NCBI RefSeq assembly: GCF_000820185.1
Contig: NZ_CDCA01000020.1
Coordinates: forward strand, 124,714-188,713
Source: Aeromonas tecta
GTDB lineage: Bacteria > Pseudomonadota > Gammaproteobacteria > Enterobacterales > Aeromonadaceae
DNA length: 64,000 nt
Reading direction: 5' to 3'
The position numbers were made by a program, and so were the translations under genes. Positions 1-34,096 of the stretch are shown here, piece by piece; positions within the stretch are counted from its first letter, which is position 1; each line of letters opens with the position of its first letter. The notes under the pieces are model-generated. The model had not been told where the DNA came from, made no database searches, and saw only the letters and a list, made by a program, of their open reading frames with translations.

Positions 1-579
1 ATGAAAAAATATCTTTATCTTAGTGAGAAATGGTACTGTGAAGCGTGGGTAAATGGTGGTGAGATCCCAATAAAACTTGCAAGCACATATTTAAGTGATG
101 AGCGTAATGGAATCCTAACTCCAGATGAGAACCTAATTCATAAAAGTGAATATCCGGTACCTAGCCTGATGCAATATGGAATTTTAATCCAAGGGGTTAA
201 AAACTTTACAATAACGAACTCATACCATGGAACCCAGAGAATCCCTGATATTATTGGCGCTGATTATTATAAAGAAGATGGATTGATACTATCTTTTTGT
301 AATGTATTTAACCCTGAGATAGCAAAACGAATGGGAAAAGTTGCATGCGTTGAAATACTCGACATAAACACATTAAAGGATATTATAAGCAAGCAATTAT
401 CTTGCGATGTAATTGCGGATGATTGCAAATATACTAAAAACCACGAAAGAAATCACTTTCTCAAGTCAGTCAATGATGAATGGCAACATGAATATAGGTT
501 GTTTTGGAAATTACTAGAAAATAAAAATGTAACATTACCACCTGATATAGCTAGAGTTGTGCCGTTGCCAGAAAAGTAA
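1..579 (+). CDS. AT-rich accessory gene next to cos, function unknown
   Basis: The 192-residue product (starts MKKYLYLSEKWY) has no signal peptide or membrane segment. It is visibly AT-rich with many AAA, ATA and TTA codons, unlike the GC-rich phage genes beside it, which suggests separate acquisition. It lies just left of cos, where P2 carries its non-essential tin and old genes, so an exclusion or anti-phage role is a reasonable guess. Near the C-terminus it has KSVNDEWQHEYRLFW. The spacing of W, E and R there faintly recalls the end of DUF2971 proteins, but I do not claim membership. The ATG is the first base of the window, so an upstream start cannot be excluded. Confidence 0.7.
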   Translation: MKKYLYLSEKWYCEAWVNGGEIPIKLASTYLSDERNGILTPDENLIHKSEYPVPSLMQYGILIQGVKNFTITNSYHGTQRIPDIIGADYYKEDGLILSFCNVFNPEIAKRMGKVACVEILDINTLKDIISKQLSCDVIADDCKYTKNHERNHFLKSVNDEWQHEYRLFWKLLENKNVTLPPDIARVVPLPEK

Positions 580-984: not shown

Positions 985-2031
985 CTATTCCGCCTGTACT
1001 GTCAGATCTGACAGTCGGTAGGGGTTGAAGCGGATAATCTCTTCCCCTGCCCAGTCATTGAGCGCCAGCAGGCTGGCCTTGATGCTGTCGATCTCGTTGA
1101 TGTCGAACACCTGGGCGGCCTTGGTCACATCGCCGAAGCCGCCGGTACTGTTCGGCATCACCCCCATCAGCTGGGGCGGTACCCGGTGAGTCGCCAGCTG
1201 GTCATCCCGGCTCACGTTCTTGATGCTGAGAAAATCATCCTTGGCTGCCACCTCGGCCACCGGGATCAGCTTCACCCCGTCCTTGCTGCCGCCCGGGGTG
1301 TAGAGCAGCAGGTTGCGGAAGTTGCCGGGGCCCTTACTCTGGCGCAGCGCTTCTTTCAGCTTGGCGATATCCCCCTCGTTCTGCACCGCATCGGTGATGT
1401 GCATGATGAAGCCGGCATGGCTGCCGTTCTCGTAGTAGCGGCGGCGAAACAGGGTGGCCGACTCGTTGAGCAGGGTGGAGTTGAGCCCGCCGACATAGTC
1501 AGGGATGCCGTAGATCTCCTGGTTGATGTCGGCCTCCAATACATGGCCCACACGCCCCGCGGGCAGGGCCTGCTCCTGCCCTGGCTGGGCAATCCACCAA
1601 TAGGCATCCAGATCCAGTCCGCGCCGAGTGTACTTGGCGCGCAGATGGTCATAGCGCAGCACCCCACCGATCCGGTTCTGCACCGCCTGCAGGTAGCCGT
1701 TGCCGAAGATCAGATAGTCCAGCGCCAGCCCGGTGAAACTGGCCAGGTTCAGCTTCGGATGGGGGATGAAGCACGAACGCAGGATGTTGCGTTTCACCTG
1801 GATGGCCGAGGCATGGTGCACCCCGGCCCGATAGACCCGCGATAAACCATTGAGCGAGAGCGGCGGCTCATACCAACGGCCGTTGTGCATCGCCTCCAGA
1901 TAGTCGAACACCTCCCGCTGGGAGAGCACCGGTACCGGCTCACCAAAGCTGAACGCCTCGATGGCCTCGGCTCCGGGTTGTTGGGTCGCCGTCACCGGCG
2001 AGGTATGGCGCTGCTGGCGGCGCTTTGTCAT
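985..2031 (-). CDS. Q: Phage portal protein (gpQ)
   Basis: The 348-residue product is a P2 gpQ-type portal, the dodecameric ring at the capsid vertex through which DNA enters and to which the tail joins. Family features seen are an N-terminal basic stretch, the FSFGEPVPVL segment, a long central domain (FGNGYLQ, near residue 110) and GGFGDVTKAAQVF near residue 300. Its ATG overlaps the stop of the terminase gene by four bases, so the two are translationally coupled in one leftward operon. Length is normal for the family. Confidence 0.93.
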   Translation of the reverse strand: MTKRRQQRHTSPVTATQQPGAEAIEAFSFGEPVPVLSQREVFDYLEAMHNGRWYEPPLSLNGLSRVYRAGVHHASAIQVKRNILRSCFIPHPKLNLASFTGLALDYLIFGNGYLQAVQNRIGGVLRYDHLRAKYTRRGLDLDAYWWIAQPGQEQALPAGRVGHVLEADINQEIYGIPDYVGGLNSTLLNESATLFRRRYYENGSHAGFIMHITDAVQNEGDIAKLKEALRQSKGPGNFRNLLLYTPGGSKDGVKLIPVAEVAAKDDFLSIKNVSRDDQLATHRVPPQLMGVMPNSTGGFGDVTKAAQVFDINEIDSIKASLLALNDWAGEEIIRFNPYRLSDLTVQAE

Positions 2032-3800
2032 GCGAAAATCTCCATCATGCTGGTATTAGCACCGGTGGCACCTGCCAGCGGCTCATGTAACAGGGCCTGC
2101 ATCGTCGCCCAAGCGATGTCTGCGTGGCTGGTTTCTTCGGAGCGGCTGGCCTCAAAGGTCGGCATCTTGCCGCCTGCGGTCACGGCGCGGCGGATACTCA
2201 TAAAGGCGGCCGCCAGATCGGTCCAGCCGCTGTCGAACTCCAGCCGCCCCTTGTTCATCACATCCTGCGCCTTCATCACCATCTGGATTTTCACGCTCGG
2301 GTTGTACTGGATGGCCGTCACCGCCGGATAGAACTGCTTCACCAGCTGATAAACCCCCTCCCCGATGCCAGTGGTATCGATACCGATGTACCCCACGTTG
2401 TAGCGATCGCACATGGCCCGGATGGCTCGCGCCTGGGCGTCGAAGTCCATACCGCTCCAGCGGTGGCGCTCGAGCACCCGGAACTTGCCACCAGGTACTG
2501 CCGGCGGGGCCAGTACGACACACCCTGCGCTGTCACTACCGACAGCGCCTTTGGCGGGGTCATAACCGATCCACACCGACCTGTTGCCCAGCGGGCGCAG
2601 GGCAAAGGGCTTGTAGTCGTCCCACAACTCCCAGCTGTCCACCATGCAGCGCTGCAAAGTCGCGAGCGGGAACACGCTGGACGTATCGTCCATGAACTCG
2701 CACATCAACAGGTTGCGATATTCCTCCTCGGAGTACTCGCCACGTAGCTGATCCAGGTCAAACAGGTCGCAGCCGCCGCGCACCGCATCCTCGACCGTGA
2801 CGATCTGCCTCCACTGGCCATCGGCGCACAGCTTGCCGCCAGACAAATTGGCGTGGCTGAGGTCAATCTCGACCCGGTCAGCCTTGGGCTTGCCACGGTT
2901 GAAATTTTCCCCTGACCAGAACTTATAAGCGGGATGGGAGAGGCTGGACGGGGTGGAGATGTAGGTCTGGCGCCACTTCTTGTGCATCGCCATGCCCGAC
3001 GCCACCTTGCGAAAATCCTGAAAACCATGGATCCAGAAATACTCATCCATGTAGATGTTGCCGTGATAGCCCTGAGCGGTGCGCGTATTGGTACCGAGAA
3101 AATACATGTGAGCCCCGTTCGGCAGCACCATGGGGTCGCCCTTGAGATCAACTCCCTCCTCTTTGGCAAACTGGATGATGTATTGCTTGAACATGTGGGC
3201 CTGCGCCTTGCTGGCCGACAGAAATATCTGATTGCGTCCAGTGACCAAGGCATCGATGAACGCCTCGAAGGCAAAATAAAACGTCGCCCCGATCTGGCGC
3301 GACTTGAGCAGGTCGCGGATCCGGTGCAGCTTGCCCGCCTCGTACCAGGTGCGTTGATAGCCAAACATGGTCGACTCGAATCGCTCGATTAACCGTTCCT
3401 GCTGCTCGGGCTCGACCACATTGCGCTCGGGCGTCTTCTTTGGCCCCTTGTTGCGGTTCGCCACCTTGGGATTGAGGTCGGCCTCATTGCCGCCATTGCT
3501 GTACTTGTTGACCCGGGCAATCCGCTCAAGCTGGCGGCCCAGCAGGTCAATCTCCTTGAAGTCGCCGCCGCTTTTCACATCCTTGGCAATCAACTGGCAC
3601 ATCCGCGATTCGATGGCGAAGTCGACCCGGTCAATGGGTTTGATGTCATCCCAGCCGTCGCGCTTCTTCCAGGTCGAGACTGTCCCCTCCGGCGTTTGCA
3701 GCAATTCAGCAATGGCGCGGAGCTGGTAGCCCTGAAAGAACAGGTGCATGGCCTGCCGTCTGGGTTCGATATGGGGGAAAACTAAGGGTGTTGTCGTCAT
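2028..3800 (-). CDS. P: Terminase large subunit, ATPase/nuclease (gpP)
   Basis: The 590-residue product packages DNA into the prohead and cuts cos. Residues 12-50 form a helix-turn-helix-like segment (LRAIAELLQTPEGTVSTWKKR) typical of gpP. The Walker A-type KSRQIGAT is at 166-173 and Walker B (IYMDEY) at 249-254. The C-terminal half has RNase H-like nuclease acidic motifs (WIGYDPAKG and IGIDTTGIGEG). It is first in a leftward operon with the portal gene. Its start is 43 bases from the inverted-repeat operator at 3843-3869, shared with the divergent O gene. Confidence 0.95.
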   Translation of the reverse strand: MTTTPLVFPHIEPRRQAMHLFFQGYQLRAIAELLQTPEGTVSTWKKRDGWDDIKPIDRVDFAIESRMCQLIAKDVKSGGDFKEIDLLGRQLERIARVNKYSNGGNEADLNPKVANRNKGPKKTPERNVVEPEQQERLIERFESTMFGYQRTWYEAGKLHRIRDLLKSRQIGATFYFAFEAFIDALVTGRNQIFLSASKAQAHMFKQYIIQFAKEEGVDLKGDPMVLPNGAHMYFLGTNTRTAQGYHGNIYMDEYFWIHGFQDFRKVASGMAMHKKWRQTYISTPSSLSHPAYKFWSGENFNRGKPKADRVEIDLSHANLSGGKLCADGQWRQIVTVEDAVRGGCDLFDLDQLRGEYSEEEYRNLLMCEFMDDTSSVFPLATLQRCMVDSWELWDDYKPFALRPLGNRSVWIGYDPAKGAVGSDSAGCVVLAPPAVPGGKFRVLERHRWSGMDFDAQARAIRAMCDRYNVGYIGIDTTGIGEGVYQLVKQFYPAVTAIQYNPSVKIQMVMKAQDVMNKGRLEFDSGWTDLAAAFMSIRRAVTAGGKMPTFEASRSEETSHADIAWATMQALLHEPLAGATGANTSMMEIFA

Positions 3801-3842
3801 GGCGCCAGTCTACCGACCCAAGCAAACCCTCTGACGCCCGCG

Positions 3843-3869
3843 CCAGTGTATCCGCCGTAGATACACTGG
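3843..3869. promoter_or_regulatory. Late-operon inverted repeat 1 (P/O divergent control region)
   Basis: Perfect 10-bp arms, CCAGTGTATC and GATACACTGG, are separated by seven bases (CGCCGTA). Identical arms occur at 10940-10966 and 15225-15251, each in front of a late operon. P2 late promoters carry a TGT-N12-ACA dyad bound by Ogr; this one is TGT-N13-ACA. Function as an activator site is inferred from position and repetition. This copy lies between divergent P and O, and so could serve both. Confidence 0.75.
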
Positions 3870-3948
3870 CCGCTGATTGCGCGATCCCGCCTGTCACCCA
3901 GACCATAACCGCGACATCACCATCCAATCACCAAAGGGATCCCAGCTC

Positions 3949-4770
3949 ATGGCTAAGTCCAAATTTTTCCGTGTTGCCGTCGAAGGGGGCACGACCGATG
4001 GCCGCACCATCACCCGCGAATGGATTGAACAGATGGCCAAGCGCTACAGCCAGTCCACCTACGGCGCCCGGGTCAATATGGAACACATTCGAGGCTTCGA
4101 CCCCAACGGTCAGTTCAAGATGTACGGCGACATCACCGCAGCCAAGACCGAAGAGGTCGACATGGAAGGTGAGAAGCGCCTGGCCCTGTTCGTACAGATC
4201 GACCCGACCCCTGAATTGGTCGAACTGAACAAGAAGCGCCAGAAGGTGTTCACCTCTGTCGAAATCCACCCGAACCTGAACGAGAAAGGCGCCTACCTGA
4301 TGGGGCTGGCCGTCACCGACAGCCCGGCCAGCCTCGGCACCGAAATGCTCCAATTCTGCAGCAAGGCCTCGACCAACCCGCTGGCCGAGCGCAAACAGCA
4401 CAAGGAGTGCCTGTTCACCGCGGCGCTGGAAACCGTCATCGAATTCGAAAACGAAGCCGACAAAGGCCCCGGCCTGCTGGAACGGGTCACCGCGCTGTTT
4501 TCCACCCACACGAAGCAATCCACCGCGGACTTAAGCGATGTGCATCAGGCCGTCGAGGCCGTGGCCAAAGAAGTGACCGCCATCGATAACGACCTGCAGA
4601 AGAAGTTCAGCGAGCAGGCCCTGACCATCACCGCACTGACCAGCCAACAGGAAGCCACTGCCAAGGCACTGGCCAACCTCACAGCCCAGCTGGAAGACCA
4701 GGAAGATTTCAGCCACAAACGCCAGCCCGCCACTGGCGCCCAAGGCACCACCATCGAAACCGATTGCTAA
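3949..4770 (+). CDS. O: Capsid scaffolding protein with protease domain (gpO)
   Basis: The 273-residue product combines an internal scaffold with a serine protease that matures the capsid proteins. D17, H46 and S103 line up with the catalytic triad of P2 gpO (Asp19, His48, Ser107). The C-terminal part (about 200-255) is a heptad-rich coiled coil expected of the scaffold. The ATG at 3949 gives MAKSKFFRVAVEGG, which matches the family N-terminus; an in-frame extension upstream to 3877 would run to within 8 bases of the operator and is not used. Confidence 0.94.
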   Translation: MAKSKFFRVAVEGGTTDGRTITREWIEQMAKRYSQSTYGARVNMEHIRGFDPNGQFKMYGDITAAKTEEVDMEGEKRLALFVQIDPTPELVELNKKRQKVFTSVEIHPNLNEKGAYLMGLAVTDSPASLGTEMLQFCSKASTNPLAERKQHKECLFTAALETVIEFENEADKGPGLLERVTALFSTHTKQSTADLSDVHQAVEAVAKEVTAIDNDLQKKFSEQALTITALTSQQEATAKALANLTAQLEDQEDFSHKRQPATGAQGTTIETDC

Positions 4771-4781
4771 GGACCCCATCC

Positions 4782-5813
4782 ATGCGTAATGAAACCCGCC
4801 AGAAGTTCAACGAGTTCACCGGCAAGGTAGCCAAACTCAACGCCATCACCAGCGCCATGGTGCAATTCAACGTGCAGCCCAGTGTCCAACAGACCCTGGA
4901 AACCAAGATGCAGGAGTCGGTCGCCTTCCTCGCCATGATCAACATGGTGCCGGTGGATGAACTCAAGGGGCAGAAAGTCGGCATCGGTATCAGCAGCACC
5001 ATCGCGGGCCGAACCAATACCGATACCAAAGACCGCCAGCCCAACAACCCGGCCGCCCTGTATGACCACAACTACGAGTGCGCCCAGACCAACTACGACA
5101 CCATGATCGGCTATGCCCAGCTCGATTCGTGGGCCAAGTTCCCTGACTTCCAGACCCGTATCCGCGACGCCATCATCACCCGCCAGGGACTGGATCGCAT
5201 CATGATTGGCTGGCACGGCACCAGTGCGGCACCAGACACTGATCGCAATGCCAACCCCTTGCTGCAAGACGTCAACATCGGCTGGCTGCAGCACATTCGC
5301 ACGGATGCCCCGGCCCAGGTCATGAGCGAAGGCATTGATGGCAGCGGCAAGATCTACGTGGATGCCGCCGACGGCGACTACAAGAACCTCGACGCCCTGG
5401 TGTTCGACGCCGTCAACGAGCTGATCAAACCCTGGTTCCAGGACGACACCGAACTGGTGGTCATCTGCGGCCGTAAGCTGCTGTCCGACAAGTATTTCCC
5501 CATCATCAACGACGCCAGCGACAACCAGAACAAGCTGGCCGGTCAGGTGCTCGTGAGCCAGAAGCAGATCGGCGGCCTCAAGGCCGTGCGCGTCCCCTTC
5601 TTCCCCGACAACGCCCTGCTGATCACCAAGCTCAGCAACCTCTCCATCTACTGGCAAGACGGTGCCCGCCGCCGCCACATTGAGGAAGAACCCAAGCGCA
5701 ACCGTATCGTCAACTACGAAAGCTCCAACGACGCCTACGTGGTGGTGGATTACGACTGTGTCGCTCTGGTCGAAAACATCGTCATGGGGCCGAACCCGGC
5801 CCCCGGCGCATAA
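4782..5813 (+). CDS. N: Major capsid protein precursor (gpN)
   Basis: The 343-residue product begins MRNETRQKFNEFTGKVAKLN, the typical start of P2-type HK97-fold capsid proteins, and keeps the family blocks GIGISSTIAGRTNT and YYDT-type loops through the body. gpO is expected to trim the N-terminus during maturation. It lies 11 bases after O, with GGA upstream of the ATG. The ATG at 4764 in the same frame overlaps O and lacks a better ribosome site. Confidence 0.95.
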   Translation: MRNETRQKFNEFTGKVAKLNAITSAMVQFNVQPSVQQTLETKMQESVAFLAMINMVPVDELKGQKVGIGISSTIAGRTNTDTKDRQPNNPAALYDHNYECAQTNYDTMIGYAQLDSWAKFPDFQTRIRDAIITRQGLDRIMIGWHGTSAAPDTDRNANPLLQDVNIGWLQHIRTDAPAQVMSEGIDGSGKIYVDAADGDYKNLDALVFDAVNELIKPWFQDDTELVVICGRKLLSDKYFPIINDASDNQNKLAGQVLVSQKQIGGLKAVRVPFFPDNALLITKLSNLSIYWQDGARRRHIEEEPKRNRIVNYESSNDAYVVVDYDCVALVENIVMGPNPAPGA

Positions 5814-5822
5814 GGGGGTGAC

Positions 5823-6503
5823 ATGACTCCCGCTCGTCGACACCGCGAAAAAGCACTGGCCGCCCTGCAAGGGGCGGCCTCTCCTCAATTCGACCAGGTA
5901 CGCGCCAACGCCTATGAACTCCAGCTGATGCAGTTGGCCGAACACCGCCGCACCCTCAAGGGCATCCAGAGCATCGAGCGCAAGATAGACGCCAAGCGCC
6001 CCATGCTGACCGTCTACAAACCTTGGATTGATGGCCTGTTGGCCGCCGACCGAGGCGGACAAGATGACGTCCTGGTCACCGTCATGCTCTGGCACCTCGA
6101 CACTGGCGATCTCGAAGGGGCTTTCCCTATGGCCGACTACGTGATCCGCCATGGCCTCAGCACCCCGGACCGCTACGAGCGCACCGCCGCCACCATGATT
6201 GCCGAAGAGGTGGCCGACACAGCCATCAAGCTGCAAGAGGCAGGCAATGGCCCCATCTGCGGGTTGCTCTATACGTACCTCGGCCTGCTTGAACCCTGCG
6301 ACATCTTCGACCAGGTGCGCGCCAAGCTGCACAAGGCCGTGGGCCGCGCCGCGCTGGCCGAAGGGCACAAGCCGCAAGCCGCCGAGCACTACCGCCGCGC
6401 CATCGAACTGCACGACAAGGTGGGCATCAAGAAGGAGCTCGAAGTGCTCGAGCGCGAGCTGAAAAAAGAACAAGGAGAGAGCCATGCCGCGCTATCGCAA
6501 TAA
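5823..6503 (+). CDS. M: Terminase small (endonuclease) subunit (gpM)
   Basis: The 226-residue product works with gpP to recognise and cut cos. It has the family N-terminus (MTPARRHREKALAALQ) and a helical central region with LMQLAEHRRTLKGIQSIERK, followed by the conserved VYKPWIDGLL and VMLWHLDTGD blocks. Its start lies nine bases after the capsid stop with GGGGGTGAC as ribosome site. Its 3' end overlaps the next small gene by 20 bases. Confidence 0.94.
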   Translation: MTPARRHREKALAALQGAASPQFDQVRANAYELQLMQLAEHRRTLKGIQSIERKIDAKRPMLTVYKPWIDGLLAADRGGQDDVLVTVMLWHLDTGDLEGAFPMADYVIRHGLSTPDRYERTAATMIAEEVADTAIKLQEAGNGPICGLLYTYLGLLEPCDIFDQVRAKLHKAVGRAALAEGHKPQAAEHYRRAIELHDKVGIKKELEVLERELKKEQGESHAALSQ

Positions 6504-6765
6504 ACCGGTTGAGATCGAAGCCCTGCAATGGACGGGTCACAACCTCACAGAGATCCAAAGGCTCGTGAAGCCATGTCACCTGTTCTTTGACCAAGAGGGC
6601 ATGAAGTTCCGCACTGCGATAGGAACGATACCAGCCAATATTGGCGACTTCATTGTCAAGGCAGTGGACGGTAGTTGTTGCCCTTGCCCTCCGAAATTAT
6701 TCGCCGCCGTCTATGAGCGAGTCACACCAGAACAGCAGCCCGACGCCCAAGGCGGCGGCAGCTAA
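6484..6765 (+). CDS. Small phage protein of unknown function
   Basis: The 93-residue product starts MPRYRNKPVEIEALQWTG and contains GDFIVKAVDGSCCPCPPKLFAAVYE. I recognise this pattern (PVEIEALQW, then GDFIVKG and a C-terminal YE) from small uncharacterised proteins in many phages, but no function is known to me. It is inserted between M and L, where P2 has no gene, and overlaps the end of M. A CCPCP cluster might bind metal; that is speculation. Confidence 0.75.
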   Translation: MPRYRNKPVEIEALQWTGHNLTEIQRLVKPCHLFFDQEGMKFRTAIGTIPANIGDFIVKAVDGSCCPCPPKLFAAVYERVTPEQQPDAQGGGS

Positions 6766-6862
6766 CCGAGCGAACCCCGCACCCTGGGCGGCTCGGGCCT
6801 GACGAATGCGTTTCGCATACCAGACGGCCCGACCACCGCCCAACAAGCGGAGAAGGAACAAC

Positions 6863-7333
6863 ATGAGCACCGGATTCATTGCCAATGCACCAACTGCACC
6901 AGCCGAAGGAGAGATAACCTCCAACCCTTTCTGGCCGGCGATCTCGCTGTCTGATCTACGCGAAACCGTCCGGCTCGATGGCACCGTCACCACCGCACGC
7001 CTCACCCATGCAGTGATCGACGCCATCACCAGCGTCAACCGGGATCTGGCTGATTGGCGCACTGCCCGCCAGGACGAAGGCCACACCACTCTGGCCGCCG
7101 TGCCGAGCGAGCGCATCAACAACGAATCGGTGTACCTGCACAGCTACCGGCGCGCCGTCTATGCCATGGCCCGCGCCAACCTGCTGGAACGCTACACCGA
7201 CTACAGCGCCACCGGTGACGGCGTCAAAGGGGCCGATGCCAAGATCGTGAGCTCTGACGACCTCTACCGGGATGCCCGTTTTGCCATCCGCGACATCCTC
7301 GGCACCACCCACAACACGGTGGAGCTGATCTGA
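6863..7333 (+). CDS. L: Head completion/stabilisation protein (gpL)
   Basis: The 156-residue product stabilises the DNA-filled head and provides the tail connection. Family blocks seen are ITSNPFWPAISLSDLRETVR and, later, ERINNESVYLHSYRRAVYA. The ATG at 6863 has GGAGAAGGAAC upstream and gives the normal family length; an in-frame start at 6806 would add a proline/arginine-rich tail unlike the family. The stop overlaps the X start (TGATG). Confidence 0.92.
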   Translation: MSTGFIANAPTAPAEGEITSNPFWPAISLSDLRETVRLDGTVTTARLTHAVIDAITSVNRDLADWRTARQDEGHTTLAAVPSERINNESVYLHSYRRAVYAMARANLLERYTDYSATGDGVKGADAKIVSSDDLYRDARFAIRDILGTTHNTVELI

Positions 7334-7536
7334 TGCAACTGCGCAGCCAACAGGGCGACACCCTCGATCTCATCCTGTTCCGGCACTACGGCTACACCGC
7401 AGGCATCACTGAGCAAGTGCTCAACCTCAACCCCGGTTTGGCCGCGCTCGGCCCCATCATCCCGACCGGGACCCTTATCACAATGCCAGCGGCCCCCACC
7501 CAGGCCGAGCAACCGCTGATCCAGCTATGGGACTGA
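7333..7536 (+). CDS. X: Tail protein X (LysM-like)
   Basis: The 67-residue product matches gpX: MQLRSQQGDTLDLILFRHYG, then a LNPGLAALGPIIPTGTLITMP segment resembling a LysM repeat. It is a small baseplate-associated protein needed for tail assembly. The start is coupled to the L stop. Confidence 0.92.
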   Translation: MQLRSQQGDTLDLILFRHYGYTAGITEQVLNLNPGLAALGPIIPTGTLITMPAAPTQAEQPLIQLWD

Positions 7537-7553
7537 CCCATGAGAACACCGAC

Positions 7554-7784
7554 ATGAGCCGCCTCGACGACGAACTCGAACGACTGGCCGACATCAGCGA
7601 ACAGAAAATCGCTGCCCGCATTCATGCCGCCCGCATCAGTGGCACCGGCCCTCACTACTGCATCGACTGCGAAAACCCCATCCCGCAGGCCCGCCGTGAA
7701 GCGATCCGGGGCTGCGAACGCTGTGCCGAGTGCCAGACCATCCATGAATTCCAAACCGCTCGCCATTACGGCGGCAAACGATAA
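7554..7784 (+). CDS. TraR/DksA-type zinc-finger protein
   Basis: The 76-residue product has a C4 zinc finger (CIDCENPIP...CERCAEC) after a helical N-terminus, the layout of phage and plasmid TraR proteins. These bind the secondary channel of RNA polymerase and mimic DksA/ppGpp. The ATG at 7554 gives the usual TraR length; an in-frame ATG at 7527 overlapping X is the alternative. It sits between X and the holin genes, so it is expressed late. A role in shifting host transcription is inferred from the family. Confidence 0.85.
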   Translation: MSRLDDELERLADISEQKIAARIHAARISGTGPHYCIDCENPIPQARREAIRGCERCAECQTIHEFQTARHYGGKR

Positions 7785-7799
7785 CAACAGGAGAGCACG

Positions 7800-8165
7800 A
7801 TGCCAGAACCGATCTCATCCAGTGCAGCAACCAGCACCCTCACCGGTCTGGCGCTGCTGTCACTGTTCCCCGGCCTTGATATCGAAGTGGTACTGGCAGC
7901 ATTCGCCGGAGCCATGGTATTCATCGCCACCACCACCGAACTCGGCAATCTGCGCAAAGCAGGGCTGTTTGTCGCGGCCTTCATCATCGGGATCCTCTTT
8001 GCCGATCAGGTAGCCGCCATCATGACAACCGTTCTACCTGCCAAGGCTGCCGGCAGCCCGCGTGCTATCGGTGCCTTGCTGGCATCGGCGATGGCCGTCC
8101 ATTTGTTGCAATGGGCCTTGCGCAAAGCGCCGGAAGACCTGTTCAAACTCCGCAAAGGGGGCTGA
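7800..8165 (+). CDS. Putative phage holin
   Basis: The 121-residue product has three hydrophobic segments (about 12-50, 55-75 and 85-105) and a charged C-terminal tail (RKAPEDLFKLRKGG). It has GGAG six bases before the ATG and comes first of the lysis genes. It is assigned as a pore-forming holin or antiholin from topology and position ahead of the muramidase, not from a specific motif. Confidence 0.75.
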   Translation: MPEPISSSAATSTLTGLALLSLFPGLDIEVVLAAFAGAMVFIATTTELGNLRKAGLFVAAFIIGILFADQVAAIMTTVLPAKAAGSPRAIGALLASAMAVHLLQWALRKAPEDLFKLRKGG

Positions 8166-8166
8166 C

Positions 8167-8475
8167 ATGCTGACCATCCTCTACGCCATGATCTGCGCCG
8201 CCATCGCCCTGCGACTGGCTACCTTCAACCGCAACGGGGGCGACTACCGCCCCCTGCCTGCCATGCTGGCATGGGTCATCACTGTGGCCGCCGGCTCCGT
8301 GCCACTGCGCGCCATGCTGGGTGCCTTGCCATCACCGGATCCCGCCGCTGTCCTGTTGGCCGCCGTGCTGCTCACTGCCCTGATCGGTTCTCGCGGCTCC
8401 GTCATGCGCCTGCTGCCACGCCGTCGCCAGCAACCGACCACCGCCAGCCACCTGAACGGGAGGTATCAACCATGA
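8167..8475 (+). CDS. Second holin-like membrane protein
   Basis: The 102-residue product has three hydrophobic segments (1-18, about 30-50 and 60-78) and a basic tail. Its opening and its RNGGDYRP segment resemble the 3TM holin family Pfam Phage_holin_3_7. The start follows the previous stop by one base and the end overlaps the endolysin start by four bases. With its neighbour it probably forms a holin/antiholin pair; which is which cannot be told from sequence. Confidence 0.75.
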   Translation: MLTILYAMICAAIALRLATFNRNGGDYRPLPAMLAWVITVAAGSVPLRAMLGALPSPDPAAVLLAAVLLTALIGSRGSVMRLLPRRRQQPTTASHLNGRYQP

Positions 8476-9296
8476 GTCTGAAAAAAGGGGATACCGGCAC
8501 CACCGTAGCCGATCTGCAGCGTCGCCTGACCAAAGCCGGCTATCCGGTCGAGCCGGACGGCTGGTTTGGCGATGCCACCGAGCTCGCCCTGCTCGCCTTC
8601 CAGCGGGACTACATGATCACCGCCATCGGCCAGGCAGGCCCGCGCACCCTGGCCGCCCTGCTCGGCAGCGAGCGCGGCAACCAGCTGACCGTCAACCATA
8701 TGCAGGCCGGTGCCGATCTGCTGGCCGTGCCACTGGCCATCATGGCCAGCGTCGCCCAGGTCGAGAGCATCGGCGAAGGTTTCACCGACGCCACGCGCCC
8801 CGTAGTGCTGTTCGAGCGGCATGTGTTCTACAAGCAACTCACCAAGCACCAGGGCAAGGCCACCGCTGACCAGATGGCCGCCAATTACCCCAACCTGGTC
8901 AACCCCAGGCGCGGCGGCTATGCCGGCGGCGCGGCAGAATGGGAACGGCTGCAACTGGCCCTCAGTCTGTGTCGGGTTGCCGCCATCGAGTCGGCCAGCT
9001 GGGGCATGTTTCAGATCATGGGCTACCACTGGCAGGCGCTGGGCTTTACCTCGGCCAGCGACTGGATGGGTGCCATGCAGCGAAGCGAGGTCGAACACCT
9101 CACAGCTCTGTGCCGCTTCATCCAACAAGACGCAGTCATGCACAAGGCGCTGCAGGGGCGAAAATGGGCCGACTTCGCCCGCCGCTACAACGGTCCCGCT
9201 TACAAAGACAACGACTACGACACCAAGCTGGCCAAGGCATACGACCACTTTGCCAAGGTTTACCAGGTGAAGGAGGTGGCAGATGCCTCGGCCTAA
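8472..9296 (+). CDS. Endolysin: N-acetylmuramidase with PG-binding domain
   Basis: The 274-residue product degrades the cell wall at lysis. Residues 1-70 are a peptidoglycan-binding type 1 domain (LKKGDTGTTVADLQRRLTKAG, then DGWFGDATELALLAFQ). The rest is a DUF3380-type muramidase, with the likely catalytic glutamate in ASVAQVES (about residue 96) or FERH (about 118), and ESASWGMFQIMGYHW near 178. There is no signal peptide, so release depends on the holins. The ATG at 8472 overlaps the previous stop and gives the full PG-binding domain. Confidence 0.93.
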   Translation: MSLKKGDTGTTVADLQRRLTKAGYPVEPDGWFGDATELALLAFQRDYMITAIGQAGPRTLAALLGSERGNQLTVNHMQAGADLLAVPLAIMASVAQVESIGEGFTDATRPVVLFERHVFYKQLTKHQGKATADQMAANYPNLVNPRRGGYAGGAAEWERLQLALSLCRVAAIESASWGMFQIMGYHWQALGFTSASDWMGAMQRSEVEHLTALCRFIQQDAVMHKALQGRKWADFARRYNGPAYKDNDYDTKLAKAYDHFAKVYQVKEVADASA

Positions 9297-9441
9297 GTGC
9301 GGTCACTTGTCAGGGAAAACCTGCATCAAGCTGGGTGCGAAATGTCTGGAGTTGCGCTGGTTTGGTGGCTGCGTGGTCTGTCCGTTCAGAGGATGTGGCC
9401 AGAAAAAGCCGCAGCCAACCCCCCCCCCCGAGGAAACCGTA
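9283..9441 (+). CDS. Small cysteine-rich ORF, open into the spanin gene
   Basis: Starting inside the end of the endolysin gene, it encodes MPRPKCGHLSGKTCIKLGAK and a Cys-rich middle (CLELRWFGGCVVCPFRGC), six cysteines in about 40 residues. It then runs through an 11-C tract straight into the i-spanin frame with no stop. With one C fewer it would end at a TAA overlapping the spanin ATG (TAATG), a normal coupled junction. So it is probably a 52-residue separate gene whose frame is altered here by a length change or a sequencing error in the tract. Function unknown. Confidence 0.55.
9419..9429 (+). repeat. C11 homopolymer
   Basis: Eleven consecutive C residues lie at the 3' end of the small cysteine-rich ORF and 13 bases before the i-spanin ATG. 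Long mononucleotide runs are prone to slippage, and a one-base change alters whether the upstream ORF stops or fuses. Confidence 0.9.
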
Positions 9442-9909
9442 ATGACATTACTGCGCTCCCCCATCACCTGGTTGCTGATCGCTCTGGCCATCGCCTTGGG
9501 CGGCTGGGGCTGGTCGGCCACCTCGGCCGCCACTGCAGCGGGCCAGGTCACCACCCTGCAAGCGGACCTCAAGGCAGCCGACGACAAGGCCAAAGAGGCC
9601 GAACATCGTGAAAAGCTCAAAGACGGGACTATCAGCACCCTCACCAGTGAGCTGGACACCCAGGCAACCGCTGCCGCACAGCTGCAGCGCCAGCTTGGCG
9701 ATCTGACCATCACGGCCGCGACTCGCGCCGACACAATCAAGAGGCTCAAACGTGAAAATGCCGAGCTCCAAGCCTGGGCTGATAGCCCTCTGCCTGATCC
9801 TGTTGTCAGGCTGCTCCAGCGCCCCGCCCTCACCGGCGCCGCAGATTATCAGGCTTACCTGTCAAAGCCTGACACCCTGCCAACTGCCACCGGCCAACCC
9901 GGCCAATAA
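9442..9909 (+). CDS. Inner-membrane spanin (Rz-like)
   Basis: The 155-residue product has an N-terminal signal anchor (about residues 8-25, WLLIALAIALGGWGW) followed by a long periplasmic coiled coil rich in A, L, K and E. This is the Rz-type i-spanin that bridges to the outer membrane and completes lysis. The ATG at 9442 has GAGGAAA upstream. Its 3' third contains the o-spanin gene in another frame. Confidence 0.85.
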   Translation: MTLLRSPITWLLIALAIALGGWGWSATSAATAAGQVTTLQADLKAADDKAKEAEHREKLKDGTISTLTSELDTQATAAAQLQRQLGDLTITAATRADTIKRLKRENAELQAWADSPLPDPVVRLLQRPALTGAADYQAYLSKPDTLPTATGQPGQ

Positions 9910-10045
9910 CGGCGATCTACTCGACCAGCTGACCCAGACCGAGGCCGCCTGGGCCAGCTGCGCCGCCCAGGTCGACAGCCTTATCGCCTGCCAACAACGA
10001 AACCCGAACGGGAGGGAATATGGAAAAACCAAAACAGATCCGTGA
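9752..10045 (+). CDS. Outer-membrane spanin lipoprotein (Rz1-like)
   Basis: The 97-residue product has a lipoprotein signal with lipobox LLSGC and lipidated Cys near residue 21. A proline-rich stretch (SSAPPSPAPQ) follows, typical of Rz1 partners. It begins inside the i-spanin gene in the +1 frame and extends beyond it. GTG at 9752 is preferred because GAGG lies seven bases upstream; ATG at 9758 is possible. The 3' end overlaps gene R by 26 bases. Confidence 0.85.
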   Translation: MKMPSSKPGLIALCLILLSGCSSAPPSPAPQIIRLTCQSLTPCQLPPANPANNGDLLDQLTQTEAAWASCAAQVDSLIACQQRNPNGREYGKTKTDP

Positions 10046-10469
10046 GGTGCTGACCCGCTGCGTGCCGCACCTCAAGACCAATCCGGACAAGCTGCACATC
10101 TTCATCGCCCCGGGCAATGTCGAAAGCACCGGCGCCCGCTCGCTCTCGTTCGAGTGGCAATACCCGCTCACCATCGGCATCGAGGACTTTGCCGGTCACC
10201 CGGATCAGATCATGGTGCCGCTGCTGGCCTGGCTGCGCCAACACCAGCCCGAACTGATGACCAACGACGAGCTGCGCAAGGATGGCATCACCTTCGAGGC
10301 CGAATACCTCGCGAGCGACCTAATGGACCTCATCATCACCGTCAAGCTGACCGAGCGGGTTCGCGTGTGGCAGAACGAACAGGGGATTGGCTGGGAGCAC
10401 CTGCCGGAGCCGCCAGAAGACCCCTACGACGGCATCACCTGGGAATTGTTCCAGCACGAGGACAACTGA
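10020..10469 (+). CDS. R: Tail completion protein (gpR)
   Basis: The 149-residue product matches P2 gpR, which acts at the end of tail assembly. Conserved features are MEKPKQIREVLTRCVPHLK and a C-terminal block with EYDGITWELF-like ending (YDGITWELFQHE). GGGAGG precedes the ATG. It overlaps the o-spanin end and is followed two bases later by S. Confidence 0.92.
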   Translation: MEKPKQIREVLTRCVPHLKTNPDKLHIFIAPGNVESTGARSLSFEWQYPLTIGIEDFAGHPDQIMVPLLAWLRQHQPELMTNDELRKDGITFEAEYLASDLMDLIITVKLTERVRVWQNEQGIGWEHLPEPPEDPYDGITWELFQHEDN

Positions 10470-10471
10470 CG

Positions 10472-10930
10472 ATGGCCGCCGACGACCTGAGCCGCCTGAC
10501 CAGCTGGGCCGATGGCCTGCTGGTCAGCATGGAACCCGCCGCCCGCCGCCAATTAGCCGAGGACATGGCGCGCAAGCTGCGAGACAGCCAAGCCAGTCGG
10601 ATCCGGGCCAACATCCTGCCAGATGGATCCCCCATGGCCCCCCGCAAGCCTCAGCCCAAGTTGAAGAAAGGCCGGGGAAGATTGCGCCACAAGATGTTCT
10701 TCAAAATCAGCAATAAAACCTGGCTCAAGGCCCGAGCCAGTGAACATCAAGCTGTGGTCGAGTTTGTCGGCACGGCCAATCGCATTGCCACCATTCACCA
10801 ATATGGCCTCAAAGACCGTATCAAGGGTCGTGAGATTTCATACCCGGTGCGGGGGCTGCTTGGCATTACAGCACAAGAGTACGACCAGCTCGAAACCACC
10901 TTGCTCGCTCACCTCACCAACGGGTTGTAA
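10472..10930 (+). CDS. S: Tail completion/virion morphogenesis protein (gpS)
   Basis: The 152-residue product is a gpS-type virion morphogenesis protein. It has a basic middle (RKPQPKLKKGRGRLRHKMF), then a domain with ATIHQYGLKDRI and SYPVRGLLGIT, as in family members. ATG at 10472 is chosen because it fits the family length and follows R directly. It is the last gene of the O operon; the next operator begins ten bases after its stop. Confidence 0.92.
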   Translation: MAADDLSRLTSWADGLLVSMEPAARRQLAEDMARKLRDSQASRIRANILPDGSPMAPRKPQPKLKKGRGRLRHKMFFKISNKTWLKARASEHQAVVEFVGTANRIATIHQYGLKDRIKGREISYPVRGLLGITAQEYDQLETTLLAHLTNGL

Positions 10931-10939
10931 TCATCGCGG

Positions 10940-10966
10940 CCAGTGTATCCACCGTGGATACACTGG
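10940..10966. promoter_or_regulatory. Late-operon inverted repeat 2 (before V)
   Basis: The arms CCAGTGTATC and GATACACTGG are the same as at 3843 and 15225. Here the spacer CACCGTG extends the symmetry so that all 27 bases are palindromic except the central one. The centre is 56 bases before the V start codon, closer than the -55-from-transcript-start geometry of P2 Ogr sites would allow with a normal leader. Confidence 0.75.
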
Positions 10967-11008
10967 CCGCAACTCGCCTTGCCTGCCATTGCCCAAAACA
11001 ATGGCCCC

Positions 11009-11560
11009 ATGCAACCGACCCCGACTGAACTCCAACGCCTGATAGACAACCTGATCCGCATCGGCACCGTCACCGCCGTGCGCTCCGGGGAATGTCGCGT
11101 CAAGACCGGCGACCTTGAAACCAACTGGCGGCCCTACGCAGCAGCGCGGGCCGGGAAGAATCGCACCCGCAGTCGCCTCTCCATCAACGAGCAGGTACTG
11201 CTGCTGTCGGTCAGCGGCGATCTGCGTAATGCCTACATTGTCGGCCCCATCAATTGCGCCGCCTTCCCCGAACCGCTGGCGAATGATGACAACCCGGATC
11301 TCGACCGCACCGAATACAGCGACGGCGCAGTGATCGAATACAACCCGCAAACCGGCGAGCTCAATGCCAACGGCATCATGGCGGCCAGGATCAAGGCCAG
11401 CGTCAGCGTGACCTTCGACGCCCCCAAGGTCATCTGCACCAACCTGCTGCAGGCCAAGCGGGTGATGAGTGAAACCGCCAAAGTCGGTGCAGTCGAGGTC
11501 ACCACCCACGGCCATGAAAATGTACAACCAGGCAGTGGCCAGTCAGGGGGCCCGATATGA
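11009..11560 (+). CDS. V: Baseplate assembly protein, spike (gpV)
   Basis: The 183-residue product is the baseplate central spike that pierces the host membrane. It has an N-terminal OB-fold (VTAVRSGECRVKTGDLETNW) and a C-terminal beta-helix-like part ending in THGHENVQPGSGQSGGP, as in gpV. First gene of the baseplate operon. ATG at 11009 matches the family N-terminus. Confidence 0.93.
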   Translation: MQPTPTELQRLIDNLIRIGTVTAVRSGECRVKTGDLETNWRPYAAARAGKNRTRSRLSINEQVLLLSVSGDLRNAYIVGPINCAAFPEPLANDDNPDLDRTEYSDGAVIEYNPQTGELNANGIMAARIKASVSVTFDAPKVICTNLLQAKRVMSETAKVGAVEVTTHGHENVQPGSGQSGGPI

Positions 11561-11916
11561 ACTGGCTCGGCATGAACGCTGCCAGCGGGCGCACCATCAG
11601 CGCCACCGACCACATCATCCAGTCGGTGCGCGACATCCTCATCACCCCGGTGGGCTCCCGCGTCATGCGCCGCGACTACGGCAGCGAGCTGTTTTACCTC
11701 ATCGACCATCCCCAGCATCAGGCGACCCGCCTGCGCCTGATGGCTGCCACCGTGCAGGCCCTCATCAACTGGGAACCCCGCATTACTATCACCCGAGTCG
11801 ATGTGCTAGGCGGCGACATGAATGGCGCCCTCACCGTCGAACTCACCTGGCAGCGCAAAGATGGCGGCGCGCCGGAATCTGCCAGCTTCACCATCCCAAC
11901 CGGAGCCGTCCAGTGA
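11557..11916 (+). CDS. W: Baseplate wedge protein (gpW)
   Basis: The 119-residue product is a gp25/lysozyme-like baseplate wedge protein of the gpW family, with DHIIQSVRDILITPVGSRVM followed by RRDYGSELF. It overlaps V by four bases (ATGA) and J by four (GTGA). Confidence 0.93.
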   Translation: MNWLGMNAASGRTISATDHIIQSVRDILITPVGSRVMRRDYGSELFYLIDHPQHQATRLRLMAATVQALINWEPRITITRVDVLGGDMNGALTVELTWQRKDGGAPESASFTIPTGAVQ

Positions 11917-12812
11917 GCACCATCACCCTCTCCCAACTGCCCCAACCCGATGTGATCGAGCTGCTGGATTACGAAGCCATCTTGGCCGAGCGCAAGGCGT
12001 ATCTCATCAGCCTCTATCCGACAGACCAACAAGCCAGCATCACCGCCACCCTGGCGCTCGAGTCCGAGCCCATCACCAAGCTGCTGCAAGAGAATGCCTA
12101 CCGGGAGCTGATCCTGCGCCAACGCATCAACGATGCGGCAGTGGCCAACATGCTGGCGTGGGCCAAGGGGAGCGACCTCGACAACCTGGTGGCCAACTGG
12201 AATGTGCAGCGCCTCATCATCCAACCGGGTGACCCCATCGCCAGCCCGCCGGTACCGGAAATCAAAGAAGATGACGAAGCCCTGATCCTGCGCGCGCTGA
12301 TGGCGTGGGATGGCCTCAGCGTAGCGGGCCCGACGGGCGCCTATGAATATTTTGCCCTCTCGGCAGACGGCAAGGTGGCTGACGCCAAAGGATCCAGTCC
12401 AGCCCCTGCAGAGGCACTGGTCACCATCCTCAGCACTGAAGGGGACGGCAGCGCCGACGCAGCGCTGATCACCAAGGTCACCCAAGCCCTGAGCCATGAA
12501 GACAAGCGCCCTGTAGCCGACCGGCTCACCGTGCAGAGCGCCGGCATCATCCACTACACCATCACCGCCAAGCTGCACATCAGCAGCCAGGGGGCAGAGG
12601 GTGACGTGATCCTGCTGGCAGCCCGTGACAAGCTCGCCGCCTTTATCAACCCGCGTCGCCGCATCGGGGTAGAGGTGCCGCGCTCTGCCATTGATGCCGC
12701 CCTGCACGTGCAGGGGGTAAGCAAGGTTGACCTGATAGGCTGGGACGACATCATCCCCAGCGCCACCCAAGCCGCCTACTGCACCGGCTTCACGGTTGGG
12801 CGAGCCCTATGA
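11913..12812 (+). CDS. J: Baseplate protein (gpJ)
   Basis: The 299-residue product is a gpJ-type baseplate wedge component. Conserved N-terminal features are STITLSQLPQPDVIELLDYE and LQENAYRELILRQRIND, followed by LAWAKGSDLDNL. The GTG start at 11913 overlaps the W stop and gives full family length. Confidence 0.93.
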   Translation: MSTITLSQLPQPDVIELLDYEAILAERKAYLISLYPTDQQASITATLALESEPITKLLQENAYRELILRQRINDAAVANMLAWAKGSDLDNLVANWNVQRLIIQPGDPIASPPVPEIKEDDEALILRALMAWDGLSVAGPTGAYEYFALSADGKVADAKGSSPAPAEALVTILSTEGDGSADAALITKVTQALSHEDKRPVADRLTVQSAGIIHYTITAKLHISSQGAEGDVILLAARDKLAAFINPRRRIGVEVPRSAIDAALHVQGVSKVDLIGWDDIIPSATQAAYCTGFTVGRAL

Positions 12813-13441
12813 ATACTCTGCTGCCGCCCAGCACCACCCGCACCGAACGCAACCTGGCCACGGCGGGCGCAGCCGCCCAGCTGTTGCCGATCCCGTTTCG
12901 CACGCTCTGGTCACCCTGGACTTGTCCCGCTCACCTGCTGCCCTATCTGGCTGCCAGCTGGAGCGTCGATCGCTGGGATGACAAATGGCCAGAAGCCACC
13001 AAACGCCAGGTCATCGCCAACAGCTACTTTGTGCATAGCCGCAAGGGCACCATCGGAGCCATTCGTCGGGTGGTGGAACCCCTCGGCTTTCTGATCAAGG
13101 TGCTGGAGTGGTGGCAAGAAACCCCACATGCCACGCCAGGCACTTTCAAGCTCGACATCGGCGTACTCGACACCGGTATTACCGAAGCCATGTACCAGGA
13201 GCTGGAGCGGCTGATTGCCGACGCCAAACCCATGACCCGCCACCTGACCGGCCTTGCCATCAGCATGGAGACCCGCGGCCCGCTCTATCTTGGGGCCGCT
13301 TGTTACCTCGGCGACGAGCTGACCATCTACCCCTACAGCCCCGAAGCCATCGAGATCCACGGCCAGCAGTGGCACGGCGGCATCCTGCACACCATCGACA
13401 CCCTCACCATTCAACCGCAACCGACAGGAGGTGCCGCTTGA
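12809..13441 (+). CDS. I: Tail protein I
   Basis: The 210-residue product matches gpI: LLPPSTTRTERNLA, then PIPFRTLWSPWTCPAHLLPY and LAASWSVDRWD. It joins the baseplate wedge and probably anchors the fibres. It overlaps J (ATGA) and H (TTGA). Confidence 0.93.
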   Translation: MNTLLPPSTTRTERNLATAGAAAQLLPIPFRTLWSPWTCPAHLLPYLAASWSVDRWDDKWPEATKRQVIANSYFVHSRKGTIGAIRRVVEPLGFLIKVLEWWQETPHATPGTFKLDIGVLDTGITEAMYQELERLIADAKPMTRHLTGLAISMETRGPLYLGAACYLGDELTIYPYSPEAIEIHGQQWHGGILHTIDTLTIQPQPTGGAA

Positions 13442-14529
13442 GCGCCATCTATTTCGCCATCCCCACCCAGGCGGGGCAGGCCAAAATCGCCAACGCCATC
13501 GCGCTGGGGATCCCGCTGAAAATCACCCACATGGCGGTGGGCGACGGCAACGGCCAGCCGGTCACCCCCAACCCGGCACAGAACACCCTGGTGCGCGAGC
13601 AACGCCGCGCCCCACTCAACACCCTGTTTCAAGACCCGCTCAACCCGGCGCAACTGGTGGCCGAGCAGATCATCCCTGAGACCGTTGGCGGGTGGTGGAT
13701 CCGTGAAGTGGGCCTGTTCGATGACAGCGGCACCCTGATTGCCATTGCCAACAGCCCGGACACCTACAAGCCTCAGCTGTCGGAAGGTTCAGGCCGCACC
13801 CAGACCATCCGCATGGTGCTGATCGTCAGCGACACCAGCGCGGTAGAGCTCAAGATTGACCCGTCCGTGGTGCTGGCCACCCGCAAATATGTCGATGATG
13901 TGATGAAGCTGCACCGAGAGGGTCGAGATCATCCTGCGAGCACTAAAACGGAAAAGGGCATGCTTCGGCTGGCCACTGAGGCAGAAGCCATCGCCGGTGA
14001 ACGGGAAGATTGCGCCGTGGCCCCCAAGCAGATGCGGGCCGCTATGGAAGCCCTGCTCGATGCTGTTTTACCCATCGGCCAGTTCATTTACTACGATGGT
14101 CCGACCGTACCGAACGACCGATTCATTGTCTGGAAAGCGCAAGCCTTTGACATGTTGATGTACCCCAAGCTGGCCGCCAAATACCCATCGGGTCGTTTGC
14201 CCGCAGACCTGCGTGGCGAGTTCATTCGCGGTGCCGACGAGGGCAGAGGCATTGTGAATGGGCTGCTCCCACTGATGAGCAAACCGGATCAGACTCGCGC
14301 CCATACTCACCAGTTTCAAAACCGTTTCGGGGCAAACCAGATTGCCCTGACATCCATTGATGGGCGCATAGGCACAACGGCCCTGCAGCCCGTCGATAAC
14401 GACTCGGTGCACGTTGCCACCGTACCGATGGCCGGTGCGGCCTCGTTTTCCATTGCCGTTGCCGCGTCTGGTGGGTCAGAAACGACGCCACGCTATGTCG
14501 CTGCCCTGATCCTGTGCCGAGCCAAGTAA
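13438..14529 (+). CDS. H: Tail fibre protein (gpH-like, short)
   Basis: The 363-residue product starts at TTG 13438, which overlaps the I stop and has AGGAGGT six bases upstream. Residues 1-150 are the conserved P2-type fibre attachment domain (SAIYFAIPTQAGQAKIANA, HMAVGDGNG, WWIREVGLFD). The C-terminal part is a tail-collar-like domain (PIGQFIYYDG, LPADLRGEFIRGADEGRG) that probably binds the receptor. It is much shorter than P2 gpH (about 670 residues), so it lacks most of the shaft. The C-terminal half is the host-range determinant in this family. Confidence 0.9.
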   Translation: MSAIYFAIPTQAGQAKIANAIALGIPLKITHMAVGDGNGQPVTPNPAQNTLVREQRRAPLNTLFQDPLNPAQLVAEQIIPETVGGWWIREVGLFDDSGTLIAIANSPDTYKPQLSEGSGRTQTIRMVLIVSDTSAVELKIDPSVVLATRKYVDDVMKLHREGRDHPASTKTEKGMLRLATEAEAIAGEREDCAVAPKQMRAAMEALLDAVLPIGQFIYYDGPTVPNDRFIVWKAQAFDMLMYPKLAAKYPSGRLPADLRGEFIRGADEGRGIVNGLLPLMSKPDQTRAHTHQFQNRFGANQIALTSIDGRIGTTALQPVDNDSVHVATVPMAGAASFSIAVAASGGSETTPRYVAALILCRAK

Positions 14530-14538
14530 GGAGCCACC

Positions 14539-15147: not shown

Positions 15148-15162
15148 CAGCACCATCACGAC

Positions 15163-15185: not shown

Positions 15186-15224
15186 ATTGTTACCGCCGCC
15201 GCTTGCACTCTTGTCACCGCCGTT

Positions 15225-16518: not shown

Positions 16519-16527
16519 GGAGTAACC

Positions 16528-34067: not shown

Positions 34068-34096
34068 TCATCAACTTTTAACACTGCCTTCAGAAA

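Follow-up and report, generated by a model that had tools for sequence, protein, structure and literature searches.

A candidate anti-phage gene with a putative ADP-ribosyltransferase-like core in the cos-proximal slot of an Aeromonas P2-like prophage

Introduction

What is the function of the AT-rich gene that lies beside the cos site of a P2-like prophage in Aeromonas tecta? The gene stands at the very start of the stretch of DNA analysed here (the window; 64,000 nucleotides, positions 124,714 to 188,713 of contig NZ_CDCA01000020.1, assembly GCF_000820185.1). A preliminary description had called it an orphan and a candidate anti-phage or exclusion gene, and had taken its slot for a known hotspot of phage-encoded defence. 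Phage P2 carries tin and old in the same slot beside cos. For the P2-like phages of E. coli the hotspot is indeed described: in PMC9122126, the slot between gpA and gpQ harbours anti-phage systems, including a single-gene DUF4238 system.

Results

The window gene is cargo of a P2-like prophage

The open reading frame covers positions 1-579 of the forward strand, with an ATG at base 1, a TAA at 577-579 and 192 codons. In a longer copy of the locus (provirus record L003) an in-frame stop is found two codons upstream of the ATG; the gene is therefore complete and not cut by the window edge. As described before, it is clearly AT-rich beside GC-rich neighbours: its GC content is 0.344, compared to 0.611 in the flank (985-20000), and none of 625 sampled 579-base segments elsewhere in the 64 kb is as low (minimum 0.478). 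Seven pairs of relatives were compared for dN/dS: four gave values of 0.09-0.13, and the other three, including the window gene and its nearest relative, are saturated at synonymous sites. A chance open reading frame was rejected on the basis of these four pairs and of the 40-member family described below. The open reading frame is thus a real coding gene that belongs to a conserved family, with purifying selection in its relatives. A promoter scan beside the gene was no better than chance (two found, 3.3 expected), and open reading frames of 51-59 amino acids are present on the opposite strand.

The P2-type cos core GGCGAGGCGGGG is located 162 bp from the gene, at 742-753 of the forward strand, where 0.09 occurrences are expected by chance. 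The P2-type end given in PMC3931495 has 19 letters, and the core is identical to the first 12; such ends are also given in PMC5261728. A terminator-like hairpin with T-runs on both sides (904-927; L003 8904-8927) lies between the gene and gpQ. The right border of the slot is the P2-type portal protein gene gpQ (985-2031, reverse strand), which is followed by the P2-type gene for the large terminase subunit gpP (2028-3800, reverse strand). The best record for the gpQ-gpP DNA is Aeromonas phage vB_AsaM_LPM4 (Peduoviridae), with 78.9% identity over 99% of the 3816-base query. To the left of the window a gpA-type replication gene is found, the protein of which shows 89.8% identity over 95% to rep of Aeromonas phage phiO18P. 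The window gene, encoded on the strand opposite to gpQ, is accordingly a cargo gene of an Aeromonas P2-like prophage and occupies the gpA-gpQ slot, in the cos-proximal position that had been assigned to it.

The left part of the slot also contains umuD and umuC (Pfam; L003 6021-7759). A link of the gene to the SOS response via umuDC was considered and dropped: the CTG-N10-CAG box, a motif no more frequent than expected by chance, is found on the umuD side, 249 bp before the ATG, and umuDC also occurs in the slot beside other cargo (L092, L093 and L098, by eye). We therefore read umuDC as a resident of the slot. Beside members of the gene family, umuC is found in L024 (Pfam) and L032 (by eye). 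An open reading frame of 133 amino acids with a nucleotidyltransferase domain (L003 5585-5986; PF01909, 37.8 bits) is located between umuC and the gpA side and is possibly a further cargo gene of the slot.

Some additional features were observed in the window. A perfect 16-base palindrome, CTGTCAGATCTGACAG, lies at 999-1014 inside the 3′ end of gpQ. A tRNA-Leu gene (21973-22057) is found approximately 260 bases past the end of the provirus record (window position ~21714 by coordinates) and is a possible attachment site. Five consecutive tRNA-Arg (acg) genes followed by one for tRNA-Ser are encoded at 33991-34654.

The slot carries different cargo in other Aeromonas loci

Relatives of gpQ with an E value of 1e-100 or better were collected from 37 genomes of the genus. 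They are present in ten genomes, including our own, at 11 places, 10 of which are in nine other genomes. The cos core GGCGAGGCGGGG was found again in six of these ten other gpQ regions (L092-L094 and L097-L099). The window gene is present at none of the ten loci and nowhere in the nine genomes; in the genus it occurs in two of the 37 genomes, our own and G004, which is without such a gpQ. The survey of the slot that had been suggested earlier thus refutes conservation of the gene at this site.

The content of the slot varies between related phages, several of the ten loci carrying different cargo. The slot of L092 encodes PD-T7-4 (PADLOC E 3.1e-89), which is named as a system in PMC9519451. 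L098 carries an ApeA-domain protein (PF18862, 94.4 bits) that is the PADLOC candidate PDC-S58 (E 2.4e-11), together with a DUF4062 protein (101 bits). In L093 a Sel1 protein with a C-terminal DUF2971 was identified (23.3 bits, cut-off 22), the start of which is resembled by that of a 634 amino acid protein in L094, and L099 carries a DUF4760 protein. When eight slot proteins were scanned with PADLOC, four had no match and two (L093 and L094) had weak ATPase-type matches alone. An AT-rich open reading frame adjoining gpQ is absent from L096, L097, L100 and L101; L095 reaches the contig end inside the slot, and L100 apparently runs into host genes (by eye). Slot genes were named by eye except for those scanned with profiles. 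In Aeromonas P2-like prophages, too, the gpA-gpQ slot thus appears to be a hotspot of defence genes, as in the P2 phages of E. coli.

The window gene belongs to a family of lone cargo genes

A tblastn search of 50,697 phage records gave no match, neither with the window protein nor with its relative L042. A first single-sequence search of the genome contigs with the window protein returned nothing; such searches yielded six of 394 genomes of the order, our own included, one plasmid, and one viral contig, which is the provirus itself. A seven-row profile (A2) found one of 369 genomes at class level, our own alone. Alignment-based searches revealed 12 loci in genome contigs and 23, later 32, in viral contigs (one a fragment). 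The gene is therefore no orphan: 39 relatives were collected, which together with the window's gene give a pooled set of 40 distinct members. The relatives were found with peptide patterns of the KYLYL, TPDENL and HFLKS types, and conservation of these stretches is inflated, since they served as search patterns; the WQ-x-E-x-R block was no part of the patterns. The alignment A3 contains 31 rows. Left out were the near-copies L036, L047 and L049 as well as two damaged copies. One of these, from an Ewingella plasmid prophage (L002 8001-8560), has a frameshift near its end; the other, from Ghiorsea (L028 2094-2692), is broken, and another copy in the same assembly (L022) is intact.

Searches of Pfam, NCBIfam and PADLOC gave no significant match for the family. 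None of the 31 members was listed by the DUF2971 model PF11185 even at E 1, none was listed at E 1 by the PADLOC models for PDC-S31, and a PDB sequence search with A3 gave nothing up to E 10. PADLOC matches of single members (MTase_II 0.002, Cyclase 0.0069, Cas3b 0.008, JetD 0.026) were taken as chance, as were NCBIfam PRK05809 (0.0084 for the window protein, 15.6 bits against a cut-off of 394), Avs5 (0.032), and Pfam IF-2 (0.018) and Beta_helix (0.037, two members). A structural or replication protein of the phage was rejected, because there is no significant Pfam or PHROG match and none in the phage records. Old is an AAA protein, and an Old-like protein was rejected as well because the window protein has no Pfam match. 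That no family could be named for the protein thus holds after the searches too.

The gene has a lower GC content than its own locus in all 37 loci counted (difference 0.024 to 0.268, median 0.123); L117 and L118 (near-copies) and L027 (no open reading frame picked) were not counted and are also below their locus. The relatives stand alone as cargo genes; some are found in prophages and others at sites in the chromosome. In prophages resembling the lambdoid ones of E. coli they are located between the antiterminator gene Q and the holin gene, as seen in L042 (Pfam), L002 (annotation of the record) and, by eye, L044, L116, L118, L123 and L125. In L104 the relative is flanked by a tail tube gene (Pfam) on one side and, by eye, a probable tape measure gene on the other, and in L046 it lies after a probable Rz gene and before a DUF2280 gene. 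Chromosomal relatives are found among non-phage genes, for example beside glyS (L017) and scpA (L023; both by eye). Most of those seen stand beside no named defence gene (by eye). Elsewhere, in L026, the relative is located 40 bp downstream of a Septu pair on the same strand (L026 6074-8582; PtuA E 3.7e-152, PtuB E 1.2e-63), of which it might be a third component, and in L020 it follows a DUF2971/PDC-S31 gene at a distance of 108 bp (L020 7218-7892; PADLOC E 4.7e-26, Pfam 25.5 bits). Among the open reading frames of at least 50 amino acids listed beside the relatives, no constant partner, antitoxin, immunity gene or trigger was recognised; neighbours were named by eye unless scanned with profiles.

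These surroundings bear on the question of whom the gene serves. The ADP-ribosyltransferases (ARTs) of phage T4 serve T4's own growth or counter host defences, and an ART-like enzyme that acts in lytic growth or against host defences, and not in protection of the lysogen, would fit the relatives between Q and holin and the one between the tail genes of L104. We regard this as rather improbable, since the window gene occupies a cargo slot with an orientation opposite to that of gpQ, is missing from the ten other gpQ loci and from the phage records searched with tblastn, and has chromosomal relatives among non-phage genes, one of them beside Septu. An addiction module, a bacteriocin-like gene or a host-fitness gene without bearing on phages could likewise stand by itself, among ordinary genes, at unrelated places in the chromosome. 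The repeated occurrence in slots that swap defence genes and the lack of a recognisable partner among the listed open reading frames make this very unlikely.

Conserved residues and predicted structure

In A3 the invariant residues are L5, Y6, L7, W16, G19, P23, S28, Y30, R35, T40-P-D-E-N-L45, G94, K113, C142, Y144, R150, H152, F153, K155, D159, W161, Q162, E164, R166, F168 and W169. The polar residues S28, Y30, R35, D42, E43, K155, Q162, E164 and R166 are thus invariant in 31 of 31 rows, with the bias that TPDENL was a search pattern. They lie in two stretches. The first (codons 28-45; 82-135, forward strand) follows beta strand 2 of the model and reads S28-x-Y30-x4-R35 plus T40-P-D-E-N-L45. 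The S-x-Y-x4-R part is present in all 40 members and TPDENL in 35, a count biased upwards by its use as a pattern; the stretch is a possible active-site loop. The second (codons 155-169; 463-507, forward strand) reads K155-x5-W161-Q162-x-E164-x-R166-x-F168-W169, and all 40 members have K-x5-W-Q-x-E-x-R (motifs were counted by text search at any position of a sequence). It contains the W-x2-E-x-R block that had been noticed near the end of the protein (W161-Q-H-E164-Y-R166). A Q/E-x-E motif at the start of the late core strand is characteristic of ARTs. Q162-x-E164 agrees with this motif and lies at the start of a late strand (164-169), which would correspond to a strand of the ART core. Judged from the sequence, block 155-169 may be read as a putative ADP-ribosyltransferase Q-x-E motif.

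The structure prediction that had been suggested for the window protein gave a confident model (pLDDT 91.1, pTM 0.83; only residues 33-40 are under 50) without a significant structural match. Foldseek against the PDB reached a best E value of 0.34, with no ART among the best 50 of 81 rows. Against BFVD the best value was 0.14, and the best 50 of 186 rows contained one DarT at noise level (rank 45, E 2.6, TM 0.17). VIA-align gave Z values of at most 3.2 and no ART among the best 50 of 68 rows with Z of at least 2; the best rows are a mitoribosomal protein, kinase N-lobes, eIF1 and I-DmoI. Since the Foldseek list used there contained no ARTs, this neither excludes an ART fold nor shows a new one. 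The link of the window protein to ARTs is therefore indirect.

An anti-phage or exclusion gene that is no ART enzyme has to be weighed at this point: catalysis might have been lost and the protein act by binding, as a sensor, decoy or inhibitor, or the fold might be a different one. This would agree with the missing structural match, with the TPDEN loop in place of NDPFE and with the extra beta strands at 66-91. ARTs usually carry a His or Arg in the first core strand, and no conserved His or Arg is found in strand 1 of A3 (K3-Y-L-Y-L7), as judged from the alignment. On the other hand, polar residues that are invariant in all 31 rows are expected of an active site (TPDENL again being a search pattern), and we consider the alternative without ART activity unlikely.

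A bridge group connects the family with DUF2971

Two PHROG families lead from the window family to DUF2971. Eight of the 31 members weakly match phrog_13198 (best E 0.0019) and eight weakly match phrog_26561 (best E 0.0075), both without an assigned function. Members of this bridge group were fetched from 14 and 6 of 247 genomes of the order, and 14 proteins were used; L221 and L222 (internal stop) and L231 and L233 (copies) were left out. With hhalign the family matches the bridge group with 96.7% probability (E 3.3e-10, score 70.3), compared to scores of at most 21.3 for column shuffles and 17.2 for the reversed alignment. The bridge group in turn matches 67 DUF2971 proteins with 91.6% (E 8.3e-7, score 49.7) and 48 with 92.0% (score 50.5), shuffles reaching at most 17.4 in both cases; it matches the first genome-derived DUF2971 set with 88.5% and 20 phage DUF2971 sequences with 61.5%. 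Family and bridge group pooled gave 69.8-84.6% against DUF2971. The number of distinct shuffles is below 60 in at least three of the four comparisons made with shuffles. The profile-profile kinship with the wider DUF2971-like superfamily is thus above the shuffles made, and it runs via the bridge. Eight bridge proteins were scanned with PADLOC; L228 matches PDC-S31 (E 1.2e-4) and seven match nothing.

The direct comparison of family and DUF2971 is unstable. It gave 65.7, 62.9, 31.4 and 21.9% with genome-derived sets, 0.5, 0.7, 0.7, 0.5 and 2.2% with five other sets, and 0.6-59.1% with twelve random sets, in which the real score was above the reversed one every time. With all 67 sequences the score of 20.2 is barely above the best of 100 shuffles (19.5). 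In one direct alignment K155 falls on K, Q162/E164 on E-x-E and R166 on R without a gap. The motif K-x6-E-x-E-x-R is present in 67 of 67 DUF2971 rows, and the family has the same spacing with Q for the first E. The narrower form K-x5-[YWFH]-[EQ]-x-E-x-R was found in 57 of the 67 rows, compared to 11 of 6700 shuffled sequences.

DUF2971 (PF11185; PDC-S31; phrog_1762) and the window family share the order of secondary structure elements and the collinear blocks LSF, CVEI, CKYT and K-x5-W-[QE]-x-E-x-R, and DUF2971, too, occurs as cargo: L093 carries it in this slot, and in L020 it neighbours a family member. In contrast, the window family has no Pfam or PADLOC match to DUF2971, has Q in the first position of E-x-E, carries the extra beta strands and has a shorter C-terminus. 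ND[PS] occurs in 59 and W-x-[HG]-Y in 54 of 67 DUF2971 rows, whereas NDPFE and WxHY are absent from A3, and phrog_1762 is matched by 20 of 20 DUF2971 rows tested and not by the window family. The bridge group shares Q-x-E-[YF]-R with the family in nine of its 14 proteins but is a separate group of mostly longer proteins (150-300 amino acids as excised), in which no TPDENL was seen. Viral-contig searches with two DUF2971 proteins gave nothing new. DUF2971 is carried by 51 of 148 genomes sampled in the order and by 22 of 229 in the class.

These profile comparisons connect the window family with DUF2971, of which it would be a remote sister group joined via phrog_13198/26561. The faint likeness to DUF2971 in the preliminary description therefore pointed in the right direction; membership did not hold, given the missing PF11185 and PDC-S31 matches. 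Because the DUF2971 and PDC-S31 models and the two motifs were tested and not found, we assign the family, which has no name, to a DUF2971-like superfamily, as a sister family and not as DUF2971 or PDC-S31 itself.

A DUF2971 protein models as an ART-like fold

A compact phage-borne DUF2971 protein (L177 1507-2181; PDC-S31 E 1.5e-24) was modelled from 20 rows with a pLDDT of 90.0 and a pTM of 0.87. The first five Foldseek rows for this model are TreTu and four DarT structures, with E values of 0.05-0.21, none of them significant at 0.001. VIA-align of 394 Foldseek chains gave 156 with Z of at least 2 and 24 with at least 5; none reached 8. We take the best 50 of the 156 all to be ARTs, many of them PARP1/2 entries. 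At the top are Tpt1 with Z 7.5 (102 residues, 3.1 Å) and 6.2 and DarT with 5.7-6.9; the Rhs toxins TreTu/TreX have 6.0-6.8, and PARPs and the ART domains of protein toxins follow. All ART Z values are under 8 and thus middling according to the note of VIA-align. That a single superfamily makes up the whole of these best 50 rows would nevertheless hardly arise by chance, and DUF2971 (PDC-S31) models as an ART-like fold.

The models of L177 and of the window protein have, by eye from the strand lists, the same start (beta1, helix, beta2, motif loop) and the same end: beta (LSF/LCFS), helix, beta (CVEI/CLGF), beta (KYT/EYR), K, helix (W) and beta (E-x-R). K-x5-W-Q-x-E-x-R and K-x6-E-x-E-x-R hold the same place in this strand order. 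DarT, Tpt1 and TreTu thus share the fold with the model of the DUF2971 relative (Z up to 7.5) and the Q/E-x-E signature with the window family; in contrast to them, the window protein shows no sequence match, its own model has no significant ART match, and no DarG-like antitoxin was recognised.

Discussion

We propose that the window gene is a single-gene prophage anti-phage or exclusion factor (moron) with a divergent DUF2971-like ART core, a candidate function that we consider about evenly balanced. The anti-phage part of this proposal is supported by the location in a published P2 hotspot, by the defence cargo at other loci and by relatives beside Septu and PDC-S31.

The ART-like core would be formed by beta1 (YLYL), a helix and beta2 (S28/Y30) in front and by K-x5-W-Q-x-E-x-R behind. 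E164 is the presumed catalytic glutamate, and Q162, S28, Y30, R35 and the TPDEN loop would be arranged around the active site. The protein might be expressed by the dormant prophage and be silent or harmless in healthy cells, and infection by another phage would turn it on. ADP-ribose from NAD+ would then be attached to a nucleic acid or to a component of translation or replication, of the phage or the host, and the rival phage could no longer finish its cycle. Since no antitoxin was recognised, control would sit in the protein itself or in its expression.

DarTG is an ART defence with an antitoxin. The mRNA ADP-ribosyltransferase defence CmdTAC, as presented in PMC11618068, would be close in logic to the proposal, with an ART effector that is released upon infection, but it consists of three parts, including an antitoxin and a chaperone, compared to a single gene here. 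DarTG and CmdTAC are thus the nearest known logic, and both have an antitoxin whereas none was recognised beside the window gene. Within a limited literature search DUF2971 was mentioned only in a genome reannotation. Tentatively, and with somewhat less than even confidence, we suggest that a large and so far unrecognised superfamily unites the window family with phrog_13198/26561 and DUF2971, and that its members are effectors with an ART fold which serve bacteria and prophages against phages as stand-alone, antitoxin-free weapons.

A family that no model in Pfam, NCBIfam or PADLOC matches significantly would thereby gain a testable function, and the common family DUF2971 and the PADLOC candidate PDC-S31 would be tied to the ART fold. 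If it is true that prophage ARTs act without an antitoxin, the picture of ART defence derived from DarTG and CmdTAC would be too narrow.
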